Assembly: GCF_006334915.2 (NCBI RefSeq)
Contig: NZ_VDMA02000020.1
Coordinates: forward strand, 1-64,000
Reading direction: 5' to 3'
Origin: Microbispora catharanthi
Lineage (GTDB): Bacteria; Actinomycetota; Actinomycetes; Streptosporangiales; Streptosporangiaceae
Length of the DNA: 64,000 bases
Shown here: positions 20,117 through 29,121 of the stretch, piece by piece
How the letters are laid out: the number at the start of each line of letters is the position of its first letter
How positions within the stretch are numbered: the first letter of the stretch is position 1
Program-made: the position numbers and the translations under genes
Notes under the pieces: model-generated
The model's database searches: none
Told to the model about the DNA's origin: nothing
What the model saw: only the letters and a program-made list of their open reading frames with translations

Positions 20117-20716
20117 ATGAGGAAGACGATCTCGGCCGCGGCGGCCGGCCTGGCCGTGCTCGCGGCGTCCCTGGCGGCTCCGGCGGCGGCGTTCGCGAAC
20201 GACAGCGGGGCCACCAAGCCGCTGCACCTGCGCAAGGGCCTGACTCTCAGGATCCCGTCGTCCTGGAAGGTCGACGACAGCCGCAAGGACTGGCTGCGCG
20301 TCATCACCGGCTCGTGCCCGACCAAGGGCACGGACATGTACGGCTTCCGCGACTCGGGCTGCCACAGCTTCTGGGTCATGGGGCCCAAGGCCATCAAGAT
20401 CGGTCATGAGCTGTTCCAGAAGTACATGCCGGACGGCCCGTTCTATCCGGCCACCGACGTCGGGCCCTGCCCGGTGAAGAAGAACCTTTGGATCCACCGG
20501 ACCACGCTCGCCGAGAAGGGGCTGCGGCAGGTCGGGCCGGGCCACAAGGCGTACTACCGAGACTGGGTGGGCACCTGCGGGACCATGAGCTCGGGCAGGG
20601 TCAGGGCCCGCTACAACCAGCGCGAGTGGTACCTGCCGACGTCGAAGATCCTGGTGATCGACCAGTGGGGGACGCCGGGCCTGAGCACGATACTCAAGAA
20701 CGCCACGTGGAGCTGA
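20117..20716 (+). CDS. Secreted four-cysteine protein, paralogue 1
   Basis: The predicted protein has 199 residues with a Sec signal peptide (MRKTISAAAAGLAVLAASLA, cut near AFA, residues about 26-28). The mature domain starts with a Lys-rich strand (TKPLHLRKGLTLRIPSSWKV) and contains four main Cys in the contexts GSCPT, SGCHS, GPCPV and GTCG, probably two disulfides, plus conserved blocks such as KGLRQVGPGHKA, YNQREWYLPTSKILV and ILKNATW. I do not recognise a named family. There is no Shine-Dalgarno, and a -10 box sits 7 nt before the ATG. Its neighbour at 20788-21387 is a tandem duplicate of the same length. Confidence 0.82.
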   Translation: MRKTISAAAAGLAVLAASLAAPAAAFANDSGATKPLHLRKGLTLRIPSSWKVDDSRKDWLRVITGSCPTKGTDMYGFRDSGCHSFWVMGPKAIKIGHELFQKYMPDGPFYPATDVGPCPVKKNLWIHRTTLAEKGLRQVGPGHKAYYRDWVGTCGTMSSGRVRARYNQREWYLPTSKILVIDQWGTPGLSTILKNATWS

Positions 20717-20748: not shown

Positions 20749-20780
20749 GCAAGTCGTCCGCAAGCGACCGCGCCTAGTGT
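20749..20780 (+). promoter_or_regulatory. Promoter block of second secreted paralogue
   Basis: This block matches the one at 20078-20109 at most positions and ends in the -10 box TAGTGT (20775-20780), 7 nt before the ATG at 20788. The duplication that made the paralogues therefore carried its promoter. Confidence 0.6.
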
Positions 20781-20787
20781 GCCGGGC

Positions 20788-21387
20788 ATGTTCAGAAAGA
20801 CGATCTCGGCCGCGGCGGCCGGCCTGGCCGTGCTGGCGGCGACCCTGACGGCTCCGGCTGCGGCGTTCGCGAGCGAAAGCGGCGGCACCAAGCAGGTCCG
20901 ACTGCGGAGCGGCCTGACCCTCACGATCCCCAAGTCGTGGAAGGTGGCCAAGGACGACAAGGACTGGGTGCGGGTCATCACCGGCTCGTGCCCCACCTAC
21001 GGCACCGAGGACTTCGGGTTCCGCGACTGGGGATGCCACAGCTTCTGGGTGCTGGGCCCGAAGGCGCTCAAGATCGGGCTCCGCACGTTCCAGGCGTACA
21101 AGTCGAAGTACGGCTACGACCCCGCGACCGACGTCAGCATCTGTCCCAAGAGCTACAAGCTGTACAAGGGCGAGTGGAAGCTCGCGGACAAGGGGCTGCG
21201 GCAGGTCGGGCCCGGCCACAAGGCCGACTACCACAAGTGGGCGGCGACCTGCGTCGACAAGAAGTGGCGGGTGAAGCTGCACTACAACCAGCGCGAGTGG
21301 TATCTGCCCACGTCGAAGATCCTGGTCCTCGACCAGTGGGACCACCCGCAGCTGGGCGCGATCCTCAAGAACGCGACCTGGAACTGA
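20788..21387 (+). CDS. Secreted four-cysteine protein, paralogue 2
   Basis: The predicted protein has 199 residues and is a tandem paralogue of the preceding gene. The signal peptide (MFRKTISAAAAGLAVLAATL) is almost the same, and the four Cys contexts are kept (GSCPT, WGCHS, SICPK, ATCVD). The C-terminal block YNQREWYLPTSKILVLDQW is nearly identical. A GTG at 20779 is in frame but lies in the -10 box, so ATG 20788 is chosen, which makes both paralogues exactly equal in length. Divergence lies mostly in the middle (residues about 85-150). Function is unknown. Confidence 0.82.
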   Translation: MFRKTISAAAAGLAVLAATLTAPAAAFASESGGTKQVRLRSGLTLTIPKSWKVAKDDKDWVRVITGSCPTYGTEDFGFRDWGCHSFWVLGPKALKIGLRTFQAYKSKYGYDPATDVSICPKSYKLYKGEWKLADKGLRQVGPGHKADYHKWAATCVDKKWRVKLHYNQREWYLPTSKILVLDQWDHPQLGAILKNATWN

Positions 21388-24901: not shown

Positions 24902-24923
24902 AGGACCTTTCTCGGAAGGTCCT
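24902..24923 (+). terminator. Stem-loop just before the SAM riboswitch
   Basis: AGGACCTT (24902-24909) pairs with AAGGTCCT (24916-24923) around a 6-nt loop. It lies 115 nt after the sigma-factor stop and 13 nt before the riboswitch. It could terminate sigma-gene transcripts, or it could form the 5' cap hairpin of the riboswitch transcript, whose likely -10 is TACAGT at about 24841-24846. No T run follows. Confidence 0.45.
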
Positions 24924-24935
24924 ACAACTGAACAT

Positions 24936-25075
24936 GCTCATCCAGAGGGGTGGAGGGACCGGCCCTGCGAAGCCCCGGCAACCTCCCCGGTGTCGAACTC
25001 GTGTCCACGAGGCCCGGCCGGGACAGGTGCCAATTCCGGCTCGCGGCCAGGGTGGTCGCGAGCGAAGATGAGGGA
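24936..25075 (+). promoter_or_regulatory. SAM-I (S-box) riboswitch
   Basis: The S-box core is clear. The P1 strand CTCATC (24937-24942) pairs with GATGAG (25067-25072). The conserved block CCAGAGGGGTGGAGGGACCG (24942-24961) follows, then GAAGCCCCGGCAACC and GGTGCCAATTCCGGC, with the GCGAGCGAAGATGAG 3' block at the end. It binds S-adenosylmethionine and reduces expression when methionine is plentiful. The P1 3' strand lies just before the AGGGAAAGG ribosome-binding site of the next gene, so control is probably at translation initiation. Confidence 0.96.
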
Positions 25076-25088
25076 AAGGCCTCGCTTC

Positions 25089-26351
25089 ATGGCGCACACC
25101 AGCACTGCCGCGAACACCGTCGAGTTCGGCCCCGCCACCGGTCTTTCGTGTCGCGAATGCGGCGCTCTTTACGACCTCGGCCCGATCTTCGCCTGTACGG
25201 AGTGTTTCGGCCCCCTTGAGGTGGCGTACGACTTCGGCGAGGTTCGCCGGGAGGACATCGAGTCCGGCCCGGCGAACATCTGGCGGTACCGCTCCCTGCT
25301 CCCCGTTCCCGCCGGCGTGGCGGCCAAGCCCAACCTCCAGCCCGGCTGGACCAAACTCGTGAAGGCCGACAGGCTGGCGGCCGAGCTGGGCCTGCGGTCG
25401 CTGCACGTCAAGGACGACTCCGGCAACCCGACCCACTCCTTCAAGGACCGGGTCGTCGCGATCGCGCTGGAGGCAGCGCGCAACTTCGGCTTCCACACCC
25501 TGTCGTGCTCCTCCACCGGCAACCTCGCCGGCGCGGTGAGCGCGGCCGCCGCCCGGGCCGGGCTGGACTCCTGCGTGTTCATCCCCGCCGACCTGGAGCC
25601 GGCCAAGGTCACGATGGCCGCCGTGTACGGCGGCCGCCTGGTCGCCATCGACGGCAACTACGACGAGGTCAACCGCTTCTGCTCCGAGCTCATCGGCGAC
25701 GAGCTGGGCGAGAAGTGGGGCTTCGTCAACGTCAACCTCCGGCCCTTCTACGCCGAGGGCTCCAAGACGCTGGCGTACGAGATCGCCGAGCAGCTCGGCT
25801 GGCGGCTGCCCGACCAGATCGTCATCCCGGTGGCCTCCGGCTCGCAGCTCACAAAGATCGACAAGGGCTTCCGTGAGCTGATCAAGCTGGGACTGGTCGA
25901 GGAGCGGCCCTACCGGATCTTCGGGGCGCAGGCCGAGGGCTGCTCGCCGGTCTCCCAGGCGTTCAAGGCCGGGCAGGACGTCGTGCAGCCGGTGCGGCCC
26001 GACACCATCGCCAAGTCCCTCGCCATCGGCAACCCGGCGGACGGGCCGTACGTGCTCGACATCGCGCGGCGGACGGGCGGCGCGGTGGAGGACGTGAACG
26101 ACCAGGAAGTGGTCGAGGCGATCCGCCTGCTGGCCAGGACCGAGGGCGTCTTCGCCGAGACCGCGGGCGGCGTCACGGTCGGCGTGCTGCGCAAGCTGGT
26201 GCGCGAGGGTCGCCTCGACCCCGACGCCGAGACCGTGGTGCTGAACACCGGCGACGGGCTCAAGACGCTCGACGCGGTGGCCGAGCACGCCCGCCCCGCC
26301 GCCGTCATCCGTCCCTCTCTCGACGCCTTCCGTGCGGCATTCGCCAACTGA
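25089..26351 (+). CDS. Threonine-synthase-fold PLP enzyme under SAM riboswitch control
   Basis: The predicted 420-residue enzyme is of PLP fold type II, in the threonine synthase family, which acts on O-phosphohomoserine. Two CxxC pairs (Cys21/24 and Cys36/39) suggest a small zinc-ribbon-like N-terminus, and the PLP lysine is in HSFKDR (Lys119). The SSTGNLAGAVSAAAARAG block and a C-terminal GDGLKTLDA block are also present. By family alone it would be thrC. However, a SAM-I riboswitch precedes it and a MoaD/ThiS-type carrier follows 45 nt later. I infer that it may instead use a carrier-bound sulfide to make homocysteine. ATG 25089 is used; an in-frame start at 24990 lies inside the riboswitch and is rejected. 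Confidence 0.88.
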   Translation: MAHTSTAANTVEFGPATGLSCRECGALYDLGPIFACTECFGPLEVAYDFGEVRREDIESGPANIWRYRSLLPVPAGVAAKPNLQPGWTKLVKADRLAAELGLRSLHVKDDSGNPTHSFKDRVVAIALEAARNFGFHTLSCSSTGNLAGAVSAAAARAGLDSCVFIPADLEPAKVTMAAVYGGRLVAIDGNYDEVNRFCSELIGDELGEKWGFVNVNLRPFYAEGSKTLAYEIAEQLGWRLPDQIVIPVASGSQLTKIDKGFRELIKLGLVEERPYRIFGAQAEGCSPVSQAFKAGQDVVQPVRPDTIAKSLAIGNPADGPYVLDIARRTGGAVEDVNDQEVVEAIRLLARTEGVFAETAGGVTVGVLRKLVREGRLDPDAETVVLNTGDGLKTLDAVAEHARPAAVIRPSLDAFRAAFAN

Positions 26352-26396
26352 AAGCGTTTCAAAAGGTCCATCGGCAGTAACGAAAGCGAGCGAACA

Positions 26397-26672
26397 ATGA
26401 GCGTTTCCGTGCGGATTCCGACGATTCTCCGGACGTACACCAACGGCGCCGCGGAGGTGAGCGGGGAGGGGGGAACGCTCCGCGAGGTCCTGCAGAAGCT
26501 GGACGCGGACTACCCCGGCATCGGCGGGCGCATCCTGGACGAGACGGGTAAGATCCGGCGTTTTGTCAACGTCTACGTCGGGGAAGAGGACGTCCGATTC
26601 GCCGATGGTCTGGACACCGCCACGCCGGACGGGGTGCAGATTTCGGTCATCCCCGCCGTCGCCGGAGGCTGA
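26397..26672 (+). CDS. MoaD/ThiS-family ubiquitin-like sulfur carrier
   Basis: The predicted protein has 91 residues with the beta-grasp fold and a C-terminal Gly-Gly (IPAVAGG), the residue pair that becomes adenylated and converted to a thiocarboxylate in MoaD, ThiS and CysO. Family features include the N-terminal strand VRIPTILRTYTNG, GGTLREVLQKLDADYPGIGG, and VNVYVGEEDVRF. The GG lies exactly at the end, so no protease is needed for maturation. It follows the threonine-synthase-like gene by 45 nt and is probably in the same SAM-regulated transcript. I infer that it feeds sulfur to that enzyme. The ribosome-binding site is weak (GAGCGA). Confidence 0.9.
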   Translation: MSVSVRIPTILRTYTNGAAEVSGEGGTLREVLQKLDADYPGIGGRILDETGKIRRFVNVYVGEEDVRFADGLDTATPDGVQISVIPAVAGG

Positions 26673-26862: not shown

Positions 26863-26928
26863 CGAGGACGATCGACAAAACCGGGGGCTTCTTGGGTGTG
26901 GTCCCCAGCCCAGCAAGAGGAGTCGGAA

Positions 26929-27129
26929 GTGGCGCAGGGCACCGTCAAATGGTTTAACGCGGACAAGGGCTACGGCTTCATCGCGGTAGACGGTGGTAAG
27001 GACGTGTTCGTCCATTACTCGGCAATCATGATGGACGGCTACAAGGCCCTCGAGCAGGGTCAGCGGGTTGAGTTCGACATCACGCAGGGTCAGAAGGGCC
27101 CGCAGGCGGAGGCCGTACGGGCCGTCTGA
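26929..27129 (+). CDS. Cold-shock protein, CspA family
   Basis: The predicted 66-residue single cold-shock domain starts at GTG ([18 protein letters not shown]). RNP1 is KGYGFI and RNP2 is DVFVHYS. These proteins bind single-stranded RNA or DNA and act as RNA chaperones. AGAGGAG lies 6 nt before the GTG. A strong terminator lies 17 nt after the stop, so the gene is monocistronic. Confidence 0.95.

Positions 27130-27468: not shown

Positions 27469-29121
<1,653 letters not shown>

Follow-up and report, generated by a model that had tools for sequence, protein, structure and literature searches.

The 64,000-nucleotide stretch of Microbispora catharanthi DNA analysed here (the window) carries a two-gene operon that we identify with high confidence as the ortholog of the Streptomyces metM-metO pair, placed under a SAM-I riboswitch and very probably making homocysteine from O-phosphohomoserine and carrier sulfur. 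The two genes are automatically annotated as a threonine synthase and a ThiS/MoaD protein, and the pair is very probably a methionine branch point. It would account for homocysteine synthesis in many actinomycetes without MetX (93 of 168 MetM-positive genomes), and the threonine synthase label given by automatic annotation should not be trusted. The parts of the operon, their conservation, a separate ThrC with ThrB, the non-detection of MetA and MetX, and the presence of MoeZ were all computed directly. The original prediction had set this route apart from the known ones; its inference is supported, yet the route was published in 2024 for Streptomyces (Hasebe et al., AEM 90:e01247-24), and what the window adds is an ortholog.

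The homocysteine synthase MetM was identified in Streptomyces by Hasebe et al., as cited in PMC12172450. In S. albulus, metM has a SAM riboswitch upstream and is neighboured by metO, a putative sulfur-carrier gene; MetM forms homocysteine from O-phosphohomoserine and keeps the strain from becoming a methionine auxotroph (PMC12172450). A Microcystis homolog that is 51.6% identical to S. albulus MetM produces threonine from O-phosphohomoserine in vitro, does not behave as fully MetM-like in cells, and is mainly a threonine synthase that acts as a deaminase at high threonine (PMC12172450), which calls for caution with distant members of the MetM family. A literature search, with most subscription papers outside it, found no further description of MetM or MetO besides PMC12172450, and PMC12452182, whose subject is tandem riboswitches, adds nothing on either protein.

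The metM ortholog occupies 25089-26351 on the plus strand, from an ATG at 25089 to a stop codon ending at 26351, and encodes a threonine-synthase-fold PLP enzyme of 420 residues. Characterised by Pfam, NCBIfam, alignment and tree, it is a putative homocysteine synthase acting on O-phosphohomoserine. PALP is the Pfam family of the enzyme (E 3e-70); no other Pfam family was reported for it, and Cys_Met_Meta_PP, the MetY family, was absent. Threonine synthases are its best NCBIfam models, and TIGR00260 (thrC), which gives it the label of threonine synthase, scores 280.5 bits against a cut-off of 167.1. It does not have the identity of CysM or a cysteine synthase, as the cysteine synthase A model reaches 31.7 bits against a cut-off of 387. 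The PLP lysine is K119 within NPTHSFKDR. Relatives were collected by a profile search of genome contigs, from which the best 80 of at least 573 enzyme matches were taken, and an N-terminal CxxC...CxxC ribbon is present in all 80 of these enzymes. The nearest named relative among the matches listed, from Microbispora siamensis, is 99% identical. Genes at the loci were picked by the frame of the match, with the minus-strand loci L004, L009 and L015 picked by codon-position GC and L013 not; codon-position GC also gave some implausible antisense ORFs. The AlphaFold model of the enzyme, built with 35 sequences, is only fair (mean pLDDT 75.9, pTM 0.74). Foldseek ranks 1-21 obtained with it were all threonine synthases, many at an rmsd of 10-13 Angstrom, so the domain arrangement of the model is unreliable, and active-site claims were made without it.

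The metO ortholog (26397-26672, plus strand) begins after a gap of 45 nt that holds no terminator-like site. It encodes a ThiS/MoaD-family sulfur carrier of 91 residues ending in AVAGG, an assignment based on Pfam ThiS (E 6.2e-14), locus conservation, and a best solved-structure match to CysO of Mycobacterium tuberculosis (3dwg_C, E 2.4e-25). The single terminator-like site in the scanned stretch lies inside the carrier gene, against 1.5 expected in shuffles. Among the best 80 of at least 573 relatives, a carrier ending in P.V.GG follows the enzyme gene at all 77 testable loci; those with no scorable carrier (L059, L068 and L083) have 69, 73 and 174 bases of 3′ flank. In 17 of the 77 carriers, residues extend past the Gly-Gly (13 Cys, 2 Ala-Arg, 1 Ala-Val, 1 Gln; loci L030, L034, L039, L051, L052, L053, L055, L056, L057, L058, L060, L061, L062, L067, L073, L085 and L088), and these tailed carriers would therefore need trimming before thiocarboxylation. 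Downstream of the operon lie a cold-shock protein gene (26896-27129) and a groEL-type gene (27499-29121), and a cold-shock motif occurs 3′ of metM in 55 of the 76 loci whose downstream flank spans 1200 bases or more. Elsewhere in the window, two similar tandem genes (20117-20716 and 20779-21387) encode proteins of about 200 residues with signal-peptide-like starts, an apparent tandem duplication.

The SAM-I (S-box) riboswitch aptamer lies at 24935-25074 on the plus strand, and the metM start codon follows 14 bases past its end. It matches RF00162 over the full model (1-108 of 108) with an E-value of 1.6e-15 and 74.2 bits, where the gathering score is 44.4, and it is the sole RF00162 match in the 9.25-Mb, 68-contig host genome. 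The original prediction of a complete SAM-I riboswitch, a PLP enzyme of threonine-synthase layout and a 91-residue beta-grasp Gly-Gly carrier is borne out in all three parts, the riboswitch match starting one base before the start first noted. Rfam places a SAM-I riboswitch just 5′ of the enzyme gene at 79 of the best 80 of at least 573 relative loci; the exception (L087) has 11 bases of 5′ flank, so that the riboswitch is found at 79 of 79 loci with sufficient flank. The fold energy of 24935-25120 is ordinary against shuffles (z -1.10), and the riboswitch claim therefore rests on Rfam. The 3′ strand of P1, GATGAG (25067-25072), overlaps an alternative GAGG-N6-CCTC hairpin (25070-25083) adjoining the metM start codon, forming a probable expression platform at 25067-25083 on the plus strand. 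This overlap pattern recurs in 74 of the 79 loci tested. The two folds are mutually exclusive, and in ligand-free folding the hairpin is better by 2.5 kcal/mol (-81.0 versus -78.5 kcal/mol with P1 enforced). A sequence scan found no terminator-like site between the aptamer and metM, and control of the operon is likely exerted at translation; a scan of the operon stretch gave no sigma-70-type promoter. SAM is assumed to lower operon expression, a sign taken over from the riboswitch class, as the platform geometry gives none. Directly 5′ of the riboswitch, a perfect 8-bp inverted repeat, AGGACCTT-N6-AAGGTCCT, is found at 24902-24923; a similar repeat is present in two other Microbispora loci (L026, L027) and is not evident in most of ten others compared.

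Thiocarboxylated MetO was reportedly shown to be the sulfur donor by Hasebe and colleagues in 2024. Fold-type-II synthases often take free sulfide in vitro. The use of free rather than carrier-bound sulfide with O-phosphohomoserine, the carrier being an auxiliary sulfur store, would fit with the Na2S assay that served to mimic MetM activity (PMC12172450), yet it is improbable given that the carrier and its Gly-Gly are conserved at all 77 testable loci and that MoeZ is present in the host genome (730.9 bits against a cut-off of 647; one examined of six ThiF-family matches). In mycobacteria, the CysO thiocarboxylate is made by MoeZ (PMC3227635). The host genome also encodes JAMM, CysO and CysM in a row on a contig other than that of the operon (L107 6441-8373, contig C68), with this JAMM gene as its sole Prok-JAB match. 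The host CysO ends in GGAR and would thus need trimming; the M. tuberculosis chain 3dwg_C and the MetO of the window end in GG. The window carrier is 55% identical to the host's own CysO, and the window enzyme aligns with the host's CysM at 25% over a stretch of just 105 residues. We tentatively suggest that the CysO-CysM and MetO-MetM systems may share MoeZ and the single JAMM, with JAMM freeing homocysteine from the MetO adduct and tailed carriers needing it for maturation. If so, one enzyme would control how sulfur enters cysteine as well as methionine.

A second ThrC is encoded in the host genome at L106 7021-8145 on a different contig, C68, adjoining a ThrB (homoserine kinase) gene, with scores of 306.3 bits for ThrC (TIGR00260) and 222.2 bits for ThrB. 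This rules out the window enzyme as the only threonine synthase of the genome, which holds 15 PALP-family genes. A riboswitch-free thrC next to both hom and thrB was among the checks proposed in the original prediction: thrC does adjoin thrB and has no SAM-I riboswitch, while hom did not turn up in the stretch examined around the two genes. The host's own ThrC shares 35% identity with the window enzyme and, in the alignment, is without the N-terminal part bearing the ribbon; the median identity of the enzyme to actinobacterial ThrC is 34%. A tree built from 81 window-type enzymes and 31 ThrC sequences splits the two sets cleanly (support 1.0), with identities of 29.7-39.1% between sets, 61.5-99.5% within MetM and 60.4-98.4% within ThrC. 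At least 95% conservation in both sets is seen at 118 columns. MetM and ThrC agree at 68 of these, the PLP-lysine motif SFKDR among them, and differ at the other 50; the comparison with true threonine synthases proposed in the original prediction finds many conserved residues changed. Changed segments, among them residues 216-225 and 249-258 of the enzyme, include ASGSQLTKID in MetM for GNAGNISAYW in ThrC, RPFY for NPHR, and KSLAIGNPADG for TAIRIGNPASW. Among 60 genomes of the class, all 48 MetM-positive ones have at least two thrC-family matches. A role as an additional threonine synthase, controlled by SAM so as to balance the division of O-phosphohomoserine between threonine and methionine and paired with a carrier that serves another purpose, is very unlikely. 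Although the Foldseek ranking, the TIGR00260 score and the threonine synthase activity of the Microcystis homolog (PMC12172450) favor such a role, it is opposed by the separate ThrC beside ThrB, the non-detection of MetA and MetX, the carrier gene directly 3′ in every testable locus, the clade-wide changes from ThrC, and the published function of MetM.

MetA has no match in the host genome, and MetX was not detected there, its best match reaching 26.8 bits over 57 residues; full-length MetX matches listed for other genomes of the class score 313-448 bits. The host genome has two strong Cys/Met-metabolism PLP enzymes, neither of which reaches the cut-off of the MetY model. The first is MetB-like, passing the NCBIfam cystathionine gamma-synthase model (672.8 bits against 513), and its gene adjoins a CBS gene, a pairing that suits reverse transsulfuration without proving it. 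The second falls short of all 25 cut-offs listed, with methionine gamma-lyase as its best model (399 against 549.7) and 378.6 against 495.1 for MetY. The absence of metY and metB, another of the proposed checks, is borne out by the model cut-off for metY and is not borne out for metB, given the MetB-like gene. Homocysteine may also be supplied by an acyltransferase of another kind, or by MetB using O-phosphohomoserine as in plants, where cystathionine gamma-synthase uses O-phosphohomoserine and cysteine. A main route to methionine through a MetB-like enzyme acting on O-phosphohomoserine and cysteine, followed by a beta-lyase, with the operon secondary, is highly improbable, for although both Cys/Met-family genes are present and ThrB makes O-phosphohomoserine available, the MetB-like gene adjoins CBS in a reverse-transsulfuration pairing and neither gene has a SAM-I riboswitch.

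In a sample of 246 genomes of the class, a MetM-like gene, defined by an E-value no higher than 1e-50, was found in 168. MetM-like without MetX was seen in 93 genomes, both in 75, MetX only in 72 and neither in 6. MetX presence was judged by score, since the TIGR01392 cut-off of 500 bits was passed by no genome, including the MetX-bearing control Corynebacterium glutamicum. A second count, with ten weak rows (4 MetM, 6 MetX) taken as absent, gave 95 with MetM only, 69 with both, 72 with MetX only and 10 with neither (Fisher p 2e-12 in a test that ignores kinship). MetM and MetX thus avoid each other, yet are far from exclusive, and as MetX stands alongside a MetM-like gene in 75 of 168 genomes, MetM frequently does not provide the only route. 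The genomes with neither match at the thresholds used were G010, G014, G081, G140, G150 and G244. As a separate observation, the sole Met_synt_B12 match in the host genome (C22:316711-317313, minus strand; L154) has one internal TGA.

Against the identification of the operon as metM-metO stand this co-presence of MetX, the MetB-like gene of the host, the NCBIfam label together with the threonine made by the Microcystis homolog (PMC12172450), and the internal TGA in the methionine synthase domain match. For a metM-metO operon in the host organism, we infer the following scheme, from the substrate and the source of sulfur to the chemistry of the adduct and the direction of regulation. MoeZ would adenylate the C-terminal glycine of MetO, and the rhodanese domain of MoeZ would supply sulfur to form the thiocarboxylate. 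MetM would bind O-phosphohomoserine on PLP and eliminate phosphate, giving the beta,gamma-unsaturated intermediate common to threonine synthase. The MetO thiocarboxylate would then add at the gamma carbon, whereas in the threonine synthase reaction it is water that adds, at the beta carbon. Homocysteine would arise directly or via hydrolysis of a MetO-homocysteine adduct and pass to methionine synthase, and the end product SAM would regulate the operon via the riboswitch. Homocysteine formation from O-phosphohomoserine and carrier sulfide, the central claim of the original prediction, is supported by the genome checks and would be the same reaction as in S. albulus (PMC12172450).

Compared with known systems, the window enzyme resembles ThrC in its fold, its PLP lysine motif and its putative substrate, O-phosphohomoserine. 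It differs in forming a separate clade at 29.7-39.1% identity, with 50 fixed differences and a true ThrC elsewhere in the host genome. The operon shares with MetM/MetO of S. albulus a threonine-synthase homolog, an adjoining carrier, a 5′ SAM riboswitch and, in all likelihood, the conversion of O-phosphohomoserine to homocysteine (PMC12172450). No defining feature was found to differ, in a comparison made via other Streptomyces copies; those among the best 80 of at least 573 relatives share 74-80% identity with the window enzyme. With the CysO/CysM/Mec+/MoeZ system of M. tuberculosis, the operon has in common a carrier that is a close relative of CysO and, in principle, MoeZ, whereas CysM uses O-phosphoserine and produces cysteine. 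In the HcyS/MetY system of Wolinella, a thiocarboxylated carrier gives sulfur for homocysteine. MetY, which acts on O-acetylhomoserine, belongs to the Cys/Met-metabolism PLP enzymes, whereas the window enzyme belongs to the PALP family.
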